This document shows, piece by piece, positions 8,931 through 37,133 of a stretch of 64,000 nucleotides of DNA (positions are counted from its first letter, which is position 1; each line of letters opens with the position of its first letter). The DNA comes from Azospirillum sp. TSA2s (lineage in GTDB: Bacteria > Pseudomonadota > Alphaproteobacteria > Azospirillales > Azospirillaceae), in the NCBI RefSeq assembly GCF_004923315.1, contig NZ_CP039649.1, forward strand, positions 248,001-312,000. Reading direction: 5' to 3'. The notes beneath the pieces were generated by a model, which worked only from the letters and a program-made list of their open reading frames with translations, was not told the origin of the DNA and did no database searches. Both the position numbers and the translations under genes were made by a program.

Positions 8931-9320
8931 TCAAACCCGACCGTCCGGCTCCTCCAGCGGCGGGAGTCGGGAAACGAAACGACCCTTGACGCCCTGCGGC
9001 CATTGCTTGAACGGAACGATCCCGTCATCGGTGGCGGCATAGGCGCGCAGATAGGCGGTCAGCGTCTCCACCGTCATCTCGTCCGGGGCGAAGTCGCCCA
9101 GCACATAGCTCATCCGAGCGGCGGAGCGCACCGCGACGGCGCAAGGGCGCCGGCAGCTCATCAGGCAGCGCATCGGCCGCAGCCGCACCAGCGCCGCCAG
9201 ATCGGGCTGGTCGGCCAGCGCCCGCTCCATCAGCGCCACCAGTTCCGCCCCCGGCCGCGTGGCGTCGGGCGGGTCTTCCGGCCGGCGGCAGGTTTCACAA
9301 ACGACAAGCTCGACGGTCAT
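8931..9320 (-). CDS. DUF1636 family protein (cysteine-rich, metal-binding type)
   Basis: A 129-residue cytoplasmic protein matching DUF1636, described as predicted metal-binding and resembling thioredoxin-like 2Fe-2S ferredoxins. Visible cysteine motifs are VVCETCRRP near the N-terminus and CLMSCRRPCAVAV in the middle, followed by a conserved YVLGDFAPDE. The C-terminus ends IVPFKQWPQGVKGRFVSRLP, also typical. In other alphaproteobacteria this family often sits near cobalamin genes; none are visible here. The ATG at 9320 (MTVELVVCETC) was chosen because the family begins there and GGAAG lies upstream. Confidence 0.8.
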   Translation of the reverse strand: MTVELVVCETCRRPEDPPDATRPGAELVALMERALADQPDLAALVRLRPMRCLMSCRRPCAVAVRSAARMSYVLGDFAPDEMTVETLTAYLRAYAATDDGIVPFKQWPQGVKGRFVSRLPPLEEPDGRV

Positions 9321-9469
9321 GCTTGGGCTTCCAGAGATTTTCCGGGTCATGGGGTTGGACAGCTAGAGGGCGGCTCCGGTGCTGTCAACGCGCTTGCACC
9401 TTGCCAAGCACCGGGAAACTCCCGACGATGCGGACCACCACAGGCGACGGGCGGGAACGGCGGACGGGC

Positions 9470-12400
9470 ATGAGCGCGAGGCAACGGATCGTCCGTGAAC
9501 GCCGGCAATACAACCAGCTCGCCGCCGACCAGACGCTGGAGGACTACGCGCTCCGCTACACCGCGGAACGGGCGCGGCGCTGGAGCGCGTGGCGGGTCGC
9601 CAACACCGCGCTCGGCGCCATCTCCTTCCTGGCCTGCGAGGCGCTGGGCGCCGCCGTTACCCTGACCTACGGCTTCGAGAACGCCATGGCCGCCATCCTG
9701 GCGGTGGCGGTTCTCAGCATCCTGGTCGGACTGCCGATCACCTATCACGCGGCGAAGGCCGGGGTGGACATCGACCTGCTGGCCCGCGGCGCCGGCTTCG
9801 GCTATCTCGGCTCGACCATCACCTCGCTGGTCTACGCCTCCTTCACCTTCATCCTGTTCTCGATCGAGGCCAGCATCATGTCGGCCGGGCTGACCATGGT
9901 GCTGGGCATCCCGGCCTCGGTCGCCCATGTCATCAGTTCGCTGGCGGTGATCCCCATCGCCGTCTACGGCATCCGCTTCATCAGCCGCATGCAATGGGCG
10001 ACGCAGCCGGTGTGGATCCTGCTGCAATGCGTGCCGCTGGCCTATTTCTTCCTGCTCGACCGCGAAACCCTGGCGCAATGGACCTCGCTGCCCGGCGTCT
10101 ACGCCCCCGACGGCGGGCTGTCGCTGCTGCCTTTCGGCATGGCCGCCTCCGTCCTGCTCTCGCTGCTGCCGCAGATCGGCGAGCAGGTCGACTATCTGCG
10201 CTTCCTGCCCTCGCAGTCCCGCATCGGCAAGGTGCGCTGGTGGACGGCGCTGCTGGCCGGCGGACCGGGCTGGGTGGTGATCGGCAGCCTGAAGCTGGCG
10301 GCGGGGTCGCTGCTGGCCTTCCTCGCCATCAAGCACGGGCTGGCGGTGGAGGATGCGGTGCAGCCCAACAGCATGTACCACATGGCCTTTCTCGACGTGT
10401 TCGGCTCCCCCGTCGCGGCGCTGGCGCTGACCGGCATCTTCGTCGTCGTCTGCCAGATGAAGATCAACGTCACCAACGCCTATGCCGGCTCCATCGCCTG
10501 GTCGAACTTCTTCTCCCGCCTGACCCGCAGCCACCCCGGCCGCGTCGTCTGGCTGGTGTTCAACGTGCTGCTGGCCCTGCTGCTGATGGAGATCGGCATC
10601 CTCGGCGTGATCGAGAGCATCCTTGGCCTCTACGCCAACGTTGCGGTCGGCTGGCTGGGCGCCGTCGCCGCCGATCTGGCGGTCAACAAGCCTCTGGGCT
10701 TCAGCCCGCCGGGGATCGAGTTCAAGCGCGCCCATCTCTACGACATCAACCCGGTCGGCACCGGCGCCATGGGCCTGTCGGTTCTGTGCTCGACTACCGC
10801 CTTCTTCGGCCTTCTCGGTCCGGTGGCCCAGGCGCTGGCCCCCTTCATCGGGCTGGTCGTCGCCTTCGCCGCCGCCCCGCTGATCGCCTGGAGAACCGGG
10901 GGCCGCTATTACATCGCCCGCAAGTCCACTCAACTGCCCGGCGAGGGCGCCACCGTCCGCTGTTCGATCTGCGAGAACCAGTTCGAGCGGCCGGACATGG
11001 CCTTCTGCCCGGCCTACGACGCGCCGATCTGCTCGCTCTGCTGCACGCTGGAGGCGCGCTGCCACGATCTGTGCAAGACCGACAGCCGCTTCGCCGACCA
11101 GATCGCCCACAGCCTGCAACGGGTCCTGCCCAAGCGCATGGCTGCCGGGGTCCACACCCGCACCGGCCATTTCATCGGGGTGATGACGCTGTTCTCGCTG
11201 GTGCTGGGCGGGGTGCTGCTGGTCATCGACTTCCAGTACGCCAATGCCGACGCGGCGGAGCGGGCGGCGATCCACACCGCGCTGGTCACCGTCTTCGTCT
11301 GCCTGTTCATCCTGTCCGGCGTCGCCGCCTGGCTCTTGGTGCTGGCCCATGAAAGCCGCCGCAAGGCGGAGGAGGAGACCGGCCGCCAGACCGCCATGCT
11401 GATGGACGAGATCGCCGCCCACGAACGCACCGACGCGGCCCTCCAGAAGGCCAAGGAGGTGGCGGAGGCCGCCAACGCCGCCAAGAGCCGCTACATCATC
11501 GGCGTCAGCCACGAAATCCGCGCGCCGCTCAACGCCATCTCCGGCTATGCCCAGCTTCTGGAGAGCAACAGCACCCAGCGTCCGCAGGACGCCGTCCGAG
11601 TCATCCGCCGCAGCGCGGAACATCTGTCGAACCTGATCGACGGGCTGCTCGACATCTCCAAGATCGAATCGGGCCTGCGCCGGCTCAGCCGCGACAAGGT
11701 GCAGCTGATCGACTTTCTCGACCAGCTGGCCGACATGTTCCGCATCCAGGCCTCGGCCAAGGGGCTTGAGTTCCGCTATGCCCGCGTGCCGCACCTGCCG
11801 GTCTGGGTCCACACCGACAGCAAGATCCTGCGCCAGATCCTGATCAACCTGCTGTCGAACGCGGTGAAATACACCGAGAGCGGCCATGTCGCCCTGACCG
11901 TCCGCTACCGCAGCCAGATCGCCGAGTTCGAGATCGCCGACAGCGGCATCGGCATCCGCGCCGAGGATCTCGACCGCGTCTTCGAACCGTTCGAGCGCGG
12001 GCGGGGGGCGGCGGTGCGGGCGGTGGCCGGCACCGGACTCGGCCTGACCATCACGCGGGTGCTGACCCGGATCATGGGCGGCGACATCGCCGTGCGCAGC
12101 GAAGCCGGGCGGGGCAGCGTGTTCACCGTCCGCCTGCTGCTGTCGGAGGCCATGCACCGGCCGGGCGAGCAGGTGGAGCGCCGCGCCATCACCGGCTATG
12201 CCGGGCCGCAGATCACCATCCTGCTGGCCGACGACGACCGCGACCATCTGGCGCTGATGACCGACATCCTGCGCCCGCTGGGGTTCGTGCTGTTCACCGC
12301 GTCGGACGCCTCCTCCTGCCTGGAACTGGCCGCGCAGTGCAAGCCGGACGTCGCCATGCTCGACATCTCGATGCCCGGTGAGAGCGGCTGGGATCTGGCG

Positions 12401-12939
12401 GAGGAGCTGCGCCGCCAGTTCGCCGACCGCATCCGCATCATCATGGTCTCCGCCAACGCCTACGAGGCGCAGGGGCCGGGCGACGGCCGGGCGCCGCATG
12501 ACGCCTTCGTCGCCAAGCCCATCGAGATCCACGCGCTGCTCGACCGCTTGCAGGCGCTGACCGGCCTGGAATGGCTCCATGCGGCGGAAAAGCCGGCGGA
12601 ACCGCTTGCCCCGCCGCCCGCGCCGGCCGATCAAACCCCGGACCCGTCCAATCAAACGCCGTCCAATCAAACGCCGGAGTCGGCGCTGCGTCATCTCGAC
12701 GACCTGCGCCAGCTTGGCCGGATCGGCTATATTCGCGGGATCGAGGCCAAGCTGCGCGAGATCGAGGCGGAGGATGCCGCCGCCCTGCCTTTCGTCGAGC
12801 GGCTGCGAACGCTGGTGCGCGCCTTCGACCTGAAGGGCTATATGCGTGCGGTGGAAGAGGCGTCGGCACAGCGAGACGCCGCGCGGAGCGACAATGATCG
12901 GGCGGAAGATGATCTGGAAGAAGACGGGGCCGTGACGGG

Positions 12940-12943
<4 letters not shown>
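9470..12943 (+). CDS. NCS1 permease-fused hybrid sensor histidine kinase
   Basis: A 1157-residue inner-membrane protein. Residues 40-490 resemble an NCS1-type purine/cytosine permease with about twelve membrane segments (LEDYALRYTAERARRWSAWR, GFGYLGSTITSLVYASFTF). Next is a cysteine cluster (residues 498-536: CSIC, FCPAYDAPIC, CC, C, C), two more membrane helices, HisKA (His about 681 in VSHEIRAPLN), HATPase (NLLSNAVKY, GTGLGLT) and a receiver (Asp about 965). A tandem SNQTP linker and a conserved helical tail close it. It is a transporter-as-sensor design like CbrA, but with an NCS1 rather than an SLC5 module. The response regulator gene overlaps by four bases (ATGA). A ligand such as a nucleobase, allantoin or hydantoin is inference. 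Confidence 0.9.
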
Positions 12944-13872
<929 letters not shown>

Positions 13873-33853: not shown

Positions 33854-34860
33854 GGGCCTTCTCCTACCACCGTCCCGACAGCGTCGACGCGGCGCTCCGC
33901 GGCGTCGCCGGCCAGTCCGGCACAACGACCGAGGCGGCGGTGAAGTTCGTCGCCGGCGGCACCAACCTGCTCGACCTGATGAAGGCCGACGTGATGCGGC
34001 CGGAGCGGCTGGTCGACATCTCCCGCCTCAACCTCGACAGGATCGAAGAGGTGGACGGCGGCGGCCTGCGTCTCGGCGCACTCGCCCGCAATGCCGACAC
34101 CGCCCATGACGCGCGGGTGCAGGCGCGCTACCCGATGCTGTCGAAGGCGATCCTGGCCGGGGCGTCTGCACAGCTGCGCAACATGGCGACGAATGGCGGC
34201 AACCTGCTGCAGCGCACGCGCTGCTATTACTTCTACGATACCGGCACGCCCTGCAACAAACGGGAGCCGGGGACCGGCTGCGGCGCGCTCACCGGCGTCA
34301 ACCGCATCCACGCCATCCTGGGCGCCAGCGACCATTGCATCGCCGTCCACCCGTCGGACATGTGCGTCGCCCTTGCCGCTCTTGAAGCGGTCGTCCGCGT
34401 CACTGGGTCGAGGGGCGAGCGCACCATCCCCTTCGCCGACTTCCACCGCCTGCCCGGCGACACCCCGCACATCGACAGCACTTTGGCCGCCGACGAACTC
34501 ATCACCGCCATCGACCTGCCGGCCCAGGGCTTCGCCAAGCACTCGACCTACCTGAAGGTCCGCGACCGCGCCTCCTACGCCTTCGCGCTGGTGTCGGTGG
34601 CCGCCGCGCTGGAACTGGACGGCCAGACCGTCCGCACCGCCCGCCTCGCGCTCGGCGGCGTCGCCCACAAGCCCTGGCGCGACCCGGCGGCCGAAGCCGA
34701 ACTGGCCGGCAAGCCCGCCTCGCTGGAAAGCTTCCGCGAGGCGGCGCGCGTCCTGCTGCGCGGGGCCAAGGGCCATTCGCATAACGCCTTCAAGATCGGA
34801 CTTGCCGAGCGCGCCATCGTCCGGGCGCTGGCCGAAGCCGCCGGAGTGGAGCACCCATGA
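33850..34860 (+). CDS. paoB: FAD-binding subunit of the PaoABC-like enzyme, with 4Fe-4S motif
   Basis: A 336-residue medium subunit. The FAD-binding PCMH fold has VKFVAGGTNLLDLMKADVM and NMATNGGNLLQRTRC. Between the FAD loops it carries the PaoB-type insertion with Cys125, 135, 144 and 163 (CYYFYDTGTPCNKREPGTGC), expected to hold a 4Fe-4S cluster as in E. coli PaoB. The C-terminal CO-dehydrogenase flavoprotein domain follows (YLKVRDRASYAFALVSVAAA). It starts with ATG 33850 overlapping the small-subunit stop, and its own stop overlaps the large-subunit start. Confidence 0.9.
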   Translation: MRAFSYHRPDSVDAALRGVAGQSGTTTEAAVKFVAGGTNLLDLMKADVMRPERLVDISRLNLDRIEEVDGGGLRLGALARNADTAHDARVQARYPMLSKAILAGASAQLRNMATNGGNLLQRTRCYYFYDTGTPCNKREPGTGCGALTGVNRIHAILGASDHCIAVHPSDMCVALAALEAVVRVTGSRGERTIPFADFHRLPGDTPHIDSTLAADELITAIDLPAQGFAKHSTYLKVRDRASYAFALVSVAAALELDGQTVRTARLALGGVAHKPWRDPAAEAELAGKPASLESFREAARVLLRGAKGHSHNAFKIGLAERAIVRALAEAAGVEHP

Positions 34861-37133
34861 TCGCCAAACCGACCATCCCCGATCCTCTGGACCGCCCCGG
34901 TTCGCAGATCGGCAAGCCCGTCAGCCGCGTCGACGGCCGGCTGAAGGTGACCGGCGGCGCCAAATACGCGGCGGAGTTCAACACCCCCGGACTCGCCCAC
35001 GGCTACATCGTCTCCAGCGCCATCGCCCGTGGCCGCATCCTCGGCATCGACACCGCCAAGGCGCTGGCCCTGCCCGGCGTGTTCCAGGTCTTCACCCACC
35101 TGAACCGGCCGAGCCTCCCCTGGTTCGACCGCAAGTGGAAGGACGACGACGCGCCGAAGGGTTCTCCCTTCCGCCCGCTCTACGACGCGACCATCCACCA
35201 TGCGCTCCAGCCCGTCGCGCTGGTGGTGGCGGAGAGCTTCGAACTGGCGCGCTACGCCGCCCGCCTGATCCACGTCACCTATGAGGCCGACGAGCACCAG
35301 ACCGACCTGCATGCGGCCAGTACCAGCGCCTTCACCCCCGGCAAGGACAAGGGCGGCTTCCAGCCCCCGCCCAAGCCGCGCGGCGACGCCGACAAGGCGC
35401 TGGCCGAGGCGGAGGTCAGCATCGACCTCAACTTCACCCAGGCGGTCGAGCATCACAACCCGATGGAGATGCACGCCTCCACCGTCATCTACCACAATGA
35501 CGGCACGCTGACCGTCCACGACAAGACGCAGGGGCCGATCAACACCCAGACCTATGTCTGCAACGTCTTCGACCTGTCGAAGGACGCGGTGCGGGTGATC
35601 TCCCCCTTCGTCGGCGGCGCCTTCGGCTCCGGCCTGCGTCCGCAGCACCAGCTGTTCATGGCGGTGCTGGCGGCGACCACGCTGAAGCGCTCCGTCCGGG
35701 TGGAGTTGACGCGCCCGCAGATGTTCAGCTTCGGCCACCGCCCGGAAACCCTCCAGCGCGTGGCGCTCGGCGCGAAGAAGGACGGCACCCTCACCGCCAT
35801 CATCCACGAGGCGGTGCAGGAATCCTCGCAGACCGAGAATTACGTCGAGGTCGTGGTCAACTGGTCTGGCCAGCAATACGCCTGCGACAATGTCCGGCTC
35901 GACTACAAGCTGGCGCGCATGGACACCCACACCCCGCTCGACCAGCGCGCCCCCGGCGCCGCCACCGGCGTCCCGGCGCTGGAGATCGCCATGGACGAGC
36001 TGGCGGCCAAGCTGGGCATAGACCCGCTGGAGCTGCGGCTGAAGAACTACACCGAGGTCGATCCCAACACCGGAAAGCCCTTCTCCAGCAAGGAGCTGCG
36101 CGCCTGCTTCCAACAGGGCGCCGAGCGCTTCGGCTGGCACAAGCGCACCCATGCCCCGCGGTCGATGCGCGAGGGGCGCCAGTTGATCGGCTGGGGCATG
36201 GCGACCGGCGTGTGGGACGCCATGCAGGGTCAGGCTGCGGCCTCCGCCCGGCTCGGCATCGACGGCAGGCTGACGGTCGGCAGCGCCACCGCCGACATCG
36301 GTCCCGGCACCTACACGGCGATGACCCAGATCGCCGCCGACATCCTGGGATTGCCCATCGACAGGGTGTCCTTCCAGCTCGGCGACACCAACCTGCCGAT
36401 GGCGCCGCTGGAAGGCGGCTCCTGGACGGTGTCCTCGGTCGGCTCGGCGGTGAAGGCGGTGTGCGACCGGCTGCGCGACAAGCTGGCCGGCCTCGCGGTC
36501 GGGCTGAACGACGGTCCGCTGAAGGGGTTGAAGGCCGACGACCTGACCTTCGCCGACGGCTGCCTGATCGCCAAATCCGACCCGTCCTGGCGCATGTCGA
36601 TCACCGAGGTAATGCGCGCCAACGACCTGCTGGTGCTGGAGGACGAGGCGCGCTCGATCCCCAATTACAAGTCGCAGATGCAGCACGCGCTCGGCACCCA
36701 CTCCGCAATCTTCGCGGAGGTGCGGGTGGACGAGGATCTCGGCACCGTGCAGGTGACCCGCGTGGTCAGTGCGGTGGCCGCCGGCCGCATCATCAACCCC
36801 AAGACGGCGCGCAGCCAGGTTCTGGGCGCGGTGGTGTGGGGCATCGGCATGGCGCTGGAGGAGGAGACGATGACCGACCAGCGCCTCGGCCGCTTCATGA
36901 ACCACGATTTCGCCGAGTACCACATCCCGGTGAACGCCGACGTCCACGACATCGACGTCATCTTCGTCGAGGAGCATGACGACATCGTCAACCCGCTGGG
37001 CGCCAAGGGTGTCGGCGAAATCGGCATCGTCGGCGTCCCCGCCGCCATCGCCAACGCCATCCACCACGCGACCGGCAAACGCCTCTGCGACCTGCCGATC
37101 ACGGTGGATAAGATTTTGGCGAGCGATTCTTAA
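34857..37133 (+). CDS. paoC: Molybdenum-cofactor subunit of the PaoABC-like enzyme
   Basis: A 758-residue catalytic subunit of the xanthine oxidase family. Landmarks are GKPVSRVDGRLKVTGGAKYA at the N-terminus, NPMEMHASTVIYHNDGTLTV, ISPFVGGAFGSGLRPQHQLF near the cofactor, GSWTVSSVGSAVKAVCDRL, and the terminal GAKGVGEIGIVGVPAAIANA with the conserved catalytic Glu. There is no signal peptide. The three subunits form one translationally coupled operon. The dedicated cofactor chaperone (PaoD/XdhC-like) usually found next to such genes is not in this window. Aldehyde oxidation is inferred from subunit architecture. Confidence 0.9.
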   Translation: MIAKPTIPDPLDRPGSQIGKPVSRVDGRLKVTGGAKYAAEFNTPGLAHGYIVSSAIARGRILGIDTAKALALPGVFQVFTHLNRPSLPWFDRKWKDDDAPKGSPFRPLYDATIHHALQPVALVVAESFELARYAARLIHVTYEADEHQTDLHAASTSAFTPGKDKGGFQPPPKPRGDADKALAEAEVSIDLNFTQAVEHHNPMEMHASTVIYHNDGTLTVHDKTQGPINTQTYVCNVFDLSKDAVRVISPFVGGAFGSGLRPQHQLFMAVLAATTLKRSVRVELTRPQMFSFGHRPETLQRVALGAKKDGTLTAIIHEAVQESSQTENYVEVVVNWSGQQYACDNVRLDYKLARMDTHTPLDQRAPGAATGVPALEIAMDELAAKLGIDPLELRLKNYTEVDPNTGKPFSSKELRACFQQGAERFGWHKRTHAPRSMREGRQLIGWGMATGVWDAMQGQAAASARLGIDGRLTVGSATADIGPGTYTAMTQIAADILGLPIDRVSFQLGDTNLPMAPLEGGSWTVSSVGSAVKAVCDRLRDKLAGLAVGLNDGPLKGLKADDLTFADGCLIAKSDPSWRMSITEVMRANDLLVLEDEARSIPNYKSQMQHALGTHSAIFAEVRVDEDLGTVQVTRVVSAVAAGRIINPKTARSQVLGAVVWGIGMALEEETMTDQRLGRFMNHDFAEYHIPVNADVHDIDVIFVEEHDDIVNPLGAKGVGEIGIVGVPAAIANAIHHATGKRLCDLPITVDKILASDS

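Follow-up and report, generated by a model that had tools for sequence, protein, structure and literature searches.

The window analysed here, a 64,000-nucleotide stretch of the genome of Azospirillum sp. TSA2s, encodes a hybrid histidine kinase with a sensor domain of NCS1 fold. We propose, with a probability of about three in four, that this transporter-derived kinase responds to urea and controls urea uptake and urease in trans, and that its sister clades serve formamide-type amides. The components of this proposal are not equally firm. That the kinase family serves the use of urea and amides is very probable, and control of urt and ure by the window kinase in its own genome is likely; we lean towards the sensor domain itself binding urea. 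The broadest formulation, in which a large family of NCS1-derived receptor kinases forms a dedicated sensor of urea and short amides, with a novel two-zinc linker relay and clades specialised for urea or for formamide, is an evenly balanced proposition.

The kinase is read as a single chain, its start codon backed by an N-terminus conserved among orthologues, and its gene occurs once in the 8.1 Mb genome, whose closest relatives are Azospirillum. The first-pass annotation had described permease, cysteine cluster, two helices, kinase and receiver as one protein coupled to a LuxR-type regulator; the uninterrupted reading frame and the ATGA overlap, by which the regulator gene starts within the kinase stop codon, uphold both statements. 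The features are as follows.

9470..12943, + strand: hybrid histidine kinase with NCS1-fold sensor, an open reading frame of 1157 aa, single copy in the genome
9542..10912, + strand: NCS1/LeuT-fold membrane domain, residues 25-481, 12 hydrophobic segments
10961..11074, + strand: linker with eight cysteines, C498 to C535, all of them invariant in 53/53 fused kinases; possible two-zinc module
11171..11347, + strand: two further membrane helices, residues 568-626, running into the signalling helix
11486..11674, + strand: HisKA dimerisation/phosphoacceptor domain (Pfam), residues 673-735, with H681 at 11510-11512
11816..12142, + strand: HATPase_c catalytic domain (Pfam), residues 783-891
12218..12550, + strand: C-terminal receiver domain (Response_reg, Pfam), residues 917-1027, with D965
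12940..13872, + strand: partner response regulator, receiver plus LuxR-type DNA-binding domain, overlapping the kinase stop codon

The two extra hydrophobic helices span about 568-586 and 608-626, after the cysteine cluster. All catalytic features are present (H681, N box, G box and receiver D965), and domains, catalytic residues and adjacent regulator together identify a hybrid histidine kinase with a LuxR-type partner. The two proteins are kept as an orthologous pair throughout the family, in which the regulators also show good conservation of their DNA-recognition helix.

Assignment of the sensor to NCS1 is correct in the sense of fold and remote homology. An AlphaFold model computed from 18 sequences (mean pLDDT 67, moderate confidence) finds its best PDB fold matches in Mhp1 and CodB (Foldseek E 2.7e-6 to 4.8e-6, the lower value for Mhp1; VIA Z of 25.2 for CodB and 24.6 for Mhp1). 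Other LeuT-fold families score close behind, so that fold alone is insufficient and the assignment relies on a sequence match: a profile of 18 diverse family members, searched against PDB sequences, gave a single match, CodB, at E 2.1e-5. Identity to Mhp1 and CodB is about 14-18%. The cytosine permease model of NCBIfam recognises stand-alone relatives lacking the kinase (E 3e-4 and 1.6e-16). A 12-helix LeuT-type fold nearest Mhp1 and CodB, together with the significant sequence match, thus places the sensor in the NCS1 superfamily. The permease sensor named in the first-pass annotation holds in this distant sense but not as a classical NCS1 transporter. The Pfam model PF02133 (Transp_cyt_pur) gave no match to the first 510 residues up to E 10 and none in a search of the whole genome, annotation of the N-terminal domain with Pfam and NCBIfam matched nothing, and the aromatic pair of the classical transporters is absent.

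The regulated pathway is indicated by gene neighbourhoods across the family. In the window itself the surroundings of the kinase contain no urea gene. In Methylosinus and Methylovirgula the kinase gene is found together with urease and urtABCDE, and on Klebsiella plasmids and in Burkholderia vietnamiensis with urtABCDE and formamidase. In an even, class-wide sample, urt genes lay within about 10 kb in 15 of the 18 loci outside the genus. A phylum-wide sample drawn evenly over Pseudomonadota contained the family in 52 of 398 genomes, and all 39 fused kinases examined from it had fmdA, urt or urease genes no further than about 10 kb away (23 formamidase and urt, 7 urease, 4 urease and urt, 3 urt, 2 formamidase). 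Given one to a few such loci per multi-megabase genome, we estimate chance proximity, by reckoning rather than simulation, to be in the region of one per cent. The sole sampled locus without urea or amide genes (L269) encodes a 552-residue permease of 26% identity and was excluded as not being a family kinase. For amide-type urt clusters beside formamidase, short amides and not urea had earlier been suggested as the transported compounds (PMC3098086).

Several other features of these loci were recorded. A conserved protein of ~390 aa, without Pfam match, is encoded between kinase and urtA in several of them (L023:10262-11452, L060, L061, L062). The amide-linked form (urtABCDE, formamidase and kinase) is common on Klebsiella plasmids (L025 and about 340 plasmid records), and in L025 it shares a stretch with sul2, TEM-1 and CTX-M-15 genes. 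Kinase-less relatives with a four-cysteine tail occur in Acinetobacter (L026:9953-11560), immediately 5´ of a urease operon, and in Streptomyces (L212:4417-6138), with no urease or urtA matches within about 6 kb; annotated as hypothetical or unannotated, these proteins are possible urea/amide permeases. In the window, a DUF1636 gene (8931-9350, - strand) is divergent from the kinase, and a gene for a xanthine dehydrogenase-type molybdopterin subunit (34857-37118, + strand) lies ~21 kb from it; in A. lipoferum 4B the same subunit gene adjoins the kinase pair. This divergent DUF1636 arrangement recurs in most of the Azospirillum copies situated away from urt genes and nowhere else in the family. 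Both neighbours accompany Azospirillum copies only and were rejected as family-wide partners.

In a tree of 47 members, which has long branches in other parts, the window protein falls in an alphaproteobacterial clade of 16 rows (support 99), and all nine clade members with informative context are of urea type. An orthologue of 79% identity in Azospirillum SYSU D00513 (L043) is divergent from urtA, as is the window-type kinase of Azospirillum G291, and the G317 copy adjoins urtE. The G291 gene (L172:9164-11069) is apparently broken in two, perhaps through a frameshift or an error of assembly. Many Azospirillum genomes carry a second kinase, 56% identical, and at all 12 loci examined the urt cluster around this paralogue is of amide type, 11 of these loci containing fmdA and/or amiF; urea and amide duties are therefore divided within the genus. 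The amide-linked branch (L162-L175, L063-L069, L243-L282) has palindromes of its own, e.g. ATACGTGGATTTGCGTAT in Azospirillum. A formamidase search of the TSA2s genome, run without a positive control, found none.

A candidate operator would connect the kinase to its presumed, distant targets. A palindrome, about ATACGTCAnnTGACGTAT, is common to the regions upstream of family kinases; its exact form, ATACG-N8-CGTAT, occurs in 8 of 22 such regions from lineage representatives and in 0 of 200 dinucleotide shuffles. A matrix was derived from 14 sites picked by eye, all outside Azospirillum; in a held-out test on the 39 phylum-wide loci, fetched later, it returned a site of at least 14 bits within 600 bases upstream in 27. 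Scanned over 102 kb of TSA2s sequence, the matrix gave its top matches upstream of urtA (ATGTGTCATTTGACGTAG, 18.9 bits) and upstream of ureA (GTGCGTCGTATGACGTAG, also written CTACGTCATACGACGCAC, 15.8 bits), scores at which about 0.7 and about 6 sites, respectively, are expected by chance per 8.1 Mb. The core of the urtA site, TGTCATTTGACGTA, occurs exactly once in the genome. By contig coordinates urtA is 587 kb away on the same replicon as the window, and urease is on a different contig; the kinase's own upstream region yielded no operator-like site. The site of this clade is a variant of the palindrome, detected by footprinting and matrix. The exact form was rejected as an operator in this genome, where it has three matches, fewer than the reversed-pattern control and none before urea genes. 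By linkage and by operator-like sites before urt, ure and fmd genes, both read from DNA, the family classifies as a proposed regulator of urea and amide use.

Comparison of 30 Azospirillum genomes reveals a rewiring of the urtA promoter (L093, L104-L132), which carries box or palindrome according to the presence of the kinase. Among the 18 genomes with a window-type kinase, 17 have the palindrome and none has a sigma-54-like box in front of urtA, whereas all 12 without such a kinase have the sigma-54-like box TGGCAT-N5-TTGCG and no palindrome. The ureA site is present in 16/17 genomes with the kinase and 0/13 without. The exceptions are G316, in which the kinase is present and the ureA site absent, and G317, in which only a degenerate urtA site is present. 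On the genus tree kinase and site change together about twice, with one independent pair, and the co-distribution is therefore essentially one clade-wide event. Its Fisher p of 1.5e-7 was rejected as independent statistical proof after this tree test, and the split is a consistent pattern, not a test.

Which compound is sensed is a separate question, approached here through the ligand pocket. CodB holds cytosine between Trp108 and Phe204, reported to be conserved across NCS1, and its Gln105 forms hydrogen bonds with the base (PMC9379551). By profile alignment these positions are Leu/Phe129, Leu232 and Thr126 in the kinase, and the structural Arg216 of TM6 is kept as R244. The alignment ends before TM8, where the register is taken from spacing; there Tyr285, the partner of Arg216, corresponds to Y338, and the sodium-site Thr278/Thr279 to K331/I332. 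The replacement of the ring-stacking aromatics disfavours a stacked heterocycle as ligand, and K331/I332 at the sodium-site positions probably disfavour sodium coupling. Judged from its residues, the pocket would suit a small amide without a ring, for example urea. Metformin is reported as an NCS1 substrate that has no ring (PMC13390362).

The first-pass annotation had suggested a nucleobase or hydantoin signal, and a sensor retaining the ligand class of the transporters, i.e. nucleobases, allantoin or hydantoins, would agree with the NCS1 fold, with CodB and Mhp1 as nearest solved relatives, and with a remote stand-alone Rhodococcus relative adjoining hydantoinase/oxoprolinase-type genes. We regard it as very unlikely in view of the lost aromatics, the predicted operators and the neighbourhoods of orthologues, a check that annotation had itself proposed: all 39 loci are of urea or amide type, and no purine, pyrimidine or hydantoin pathway pattern was seen.

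Neighbourhoods tell the regulated pathway rather than the ligand, and the sensor could read another nitrogen signal. Ammonium, the general nitrogen or energy state, or docked, ligand-loaded UrtA might be what the NCS1 domain perceives as it governs urea and amide genes; the kinase is frequently divergent from urtA, and transporter-kinases can sense indirectly. Against this, the existence of distinct urea and amide clades in one genus suggests substrate-specific sensing, and the pocket, unlike that of base-binding relatives, nonetheless retains many invariant polar residues. We consider such an indirect signal unlikely and prefer direct sensing of urea. A doubtful variant, which would only refine this preferred explanation, is that the protein is a transceptor, which would still transport urea or amides and would drive its kinase by the transport cycle. 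CbrA transports as well as signals (PMC7096432), and the Acinetobacter protein directly upstream of the urease operon resembles a permease; K331/I332 speak against sodium coupling, and Ks-Amt5 shows that domains of this kind can lose transport (PMC5764959).

In the linker between sensor and kinase the first-pass annotation had suggested a possible zinc site. All eight cysteines there, C498, C501, C513, C521, C524, C525, C531 and C535, are shared without exception by the fused kinases compared (53/53, from alpha-, beta- and gammaproteobacteria), which removes the objection of non-conserved cysteines; the cluster may bind metal. The kinase-less relatives of Acinetobacter and Streptomyces end inside this stretch and retain its CxxC and CSLC pairs, four cysteines in all. 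Modelled on its own, the linker shows strands and a helix, and a fold search with this model gave no significant match (best E 0.22, best Z 3.6), the weak matches being mostly to RING, PHD, FYVE and other two-zinc domains of this sort. The linker is a plausible candidate for a structural two-zinc module. One may ask instead whether the cluster senses nickel, zinc or redox state and so gates urease expression. Urease is a nickel enzyme, and eight invariant cysteines would suit such a role. We find it improbable: the cluster is equally invariant in clades with formamidase and amide transport only, where nickel has no obvious part, and the four cysteines kept in kinase-less relatives fit a structural role.

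Our preferred reading of urea as the signal leads to the following model, in which ligand identity, zinc and the direction of signalling are what we infer. Most likely, urea would bind the NCS1 domain and cause a conformational change, which would be relayed to the kinase via the cysteine-rich, probably zinc-stabilised linker and the two-helix membrane hairpin. The LuxR-type regulator would then receive the phosphoryl group of H681, either directly or via the C-terminal receiver, bind the palindrome (about ATACGTCAnnTGACGTAT) and switch on urtABCDE for urea uptake and ure for urease. In TSA2s these presumed targets are remote from the kinase, urtA on the same replicon and urease on the other contig. 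Sister clades would serve formamide-type amides in the same way.

Urea is of major importance as a fertiliser and as a source of nitrogen. The family offers a concrete candidate for a urea sensor, with a predicted operator and a predicted regulon, in alpha-, beta- and gammaproteobacteria. Its hosts include plant-associated Azospirillum and rhizobia as well as methanotrophs, and amide-use clusters with the kinase are found on Klebsiella plasmids. The presence of urea and amide branches in one genus constitutes a natural experiment on ligand change in a transporter pocket, and one more transporter fold joins the small set of transporter-derived kinases.

A literature search, largely without subscription journals, returned no account of an NCS1 kinase or of a direct urea-sensing kinase. 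AmiC/AmiR, NtrC/sigma-54 and other systems likewise control genes of urea and amide transport and hydrolysis, and no transporter-kinase takes part there. With Mhp1 and CodB the window kinase shares the fold, the 12 helices and the conserved TM6 Arg; it differs in standing outside PF02133, in having lost the ring-stacking aromatics and in the attached kinase. The closest functional parallels are CbrA, CrbS and RpuS (SLC5-STAC), in which a LeuT-fold transporter, a histidine kinase and a partner regulator govern the use of a compound (PMC7096432, PMC9100948, PMC13022988). The CbrA-like logic anticipated by the first-pass annotation, in which gene control is tied to a transporter-like domain, is supported. 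In contrast to these proteins, the sensor is NCS1-like and not SLC5, an eight-cysteine linker and two helices follow it, and the pathway is that of urea and amides; Pfam and NCBIfam detect no SLC5, STAC or PAS domain in the window kinase, whose fold is nearest NCS1, and it is accordingly no SLC5-STAC member. Ks-Amt5 is similar in that a transporter domain was recruited as a histidine kinase's sensor of a nitrogen compound (PMC5764959), but it has the Amt fold, is trimeric and not a hybrid kinase, and has neither a cysteine linker nor a described link to urea genes. By analogy, the signalling logic of the window kinase would be that of CbrA and Ks-Amt5, realised with another fold, another linker and another pathway (PMC13022988, PMC5764959).
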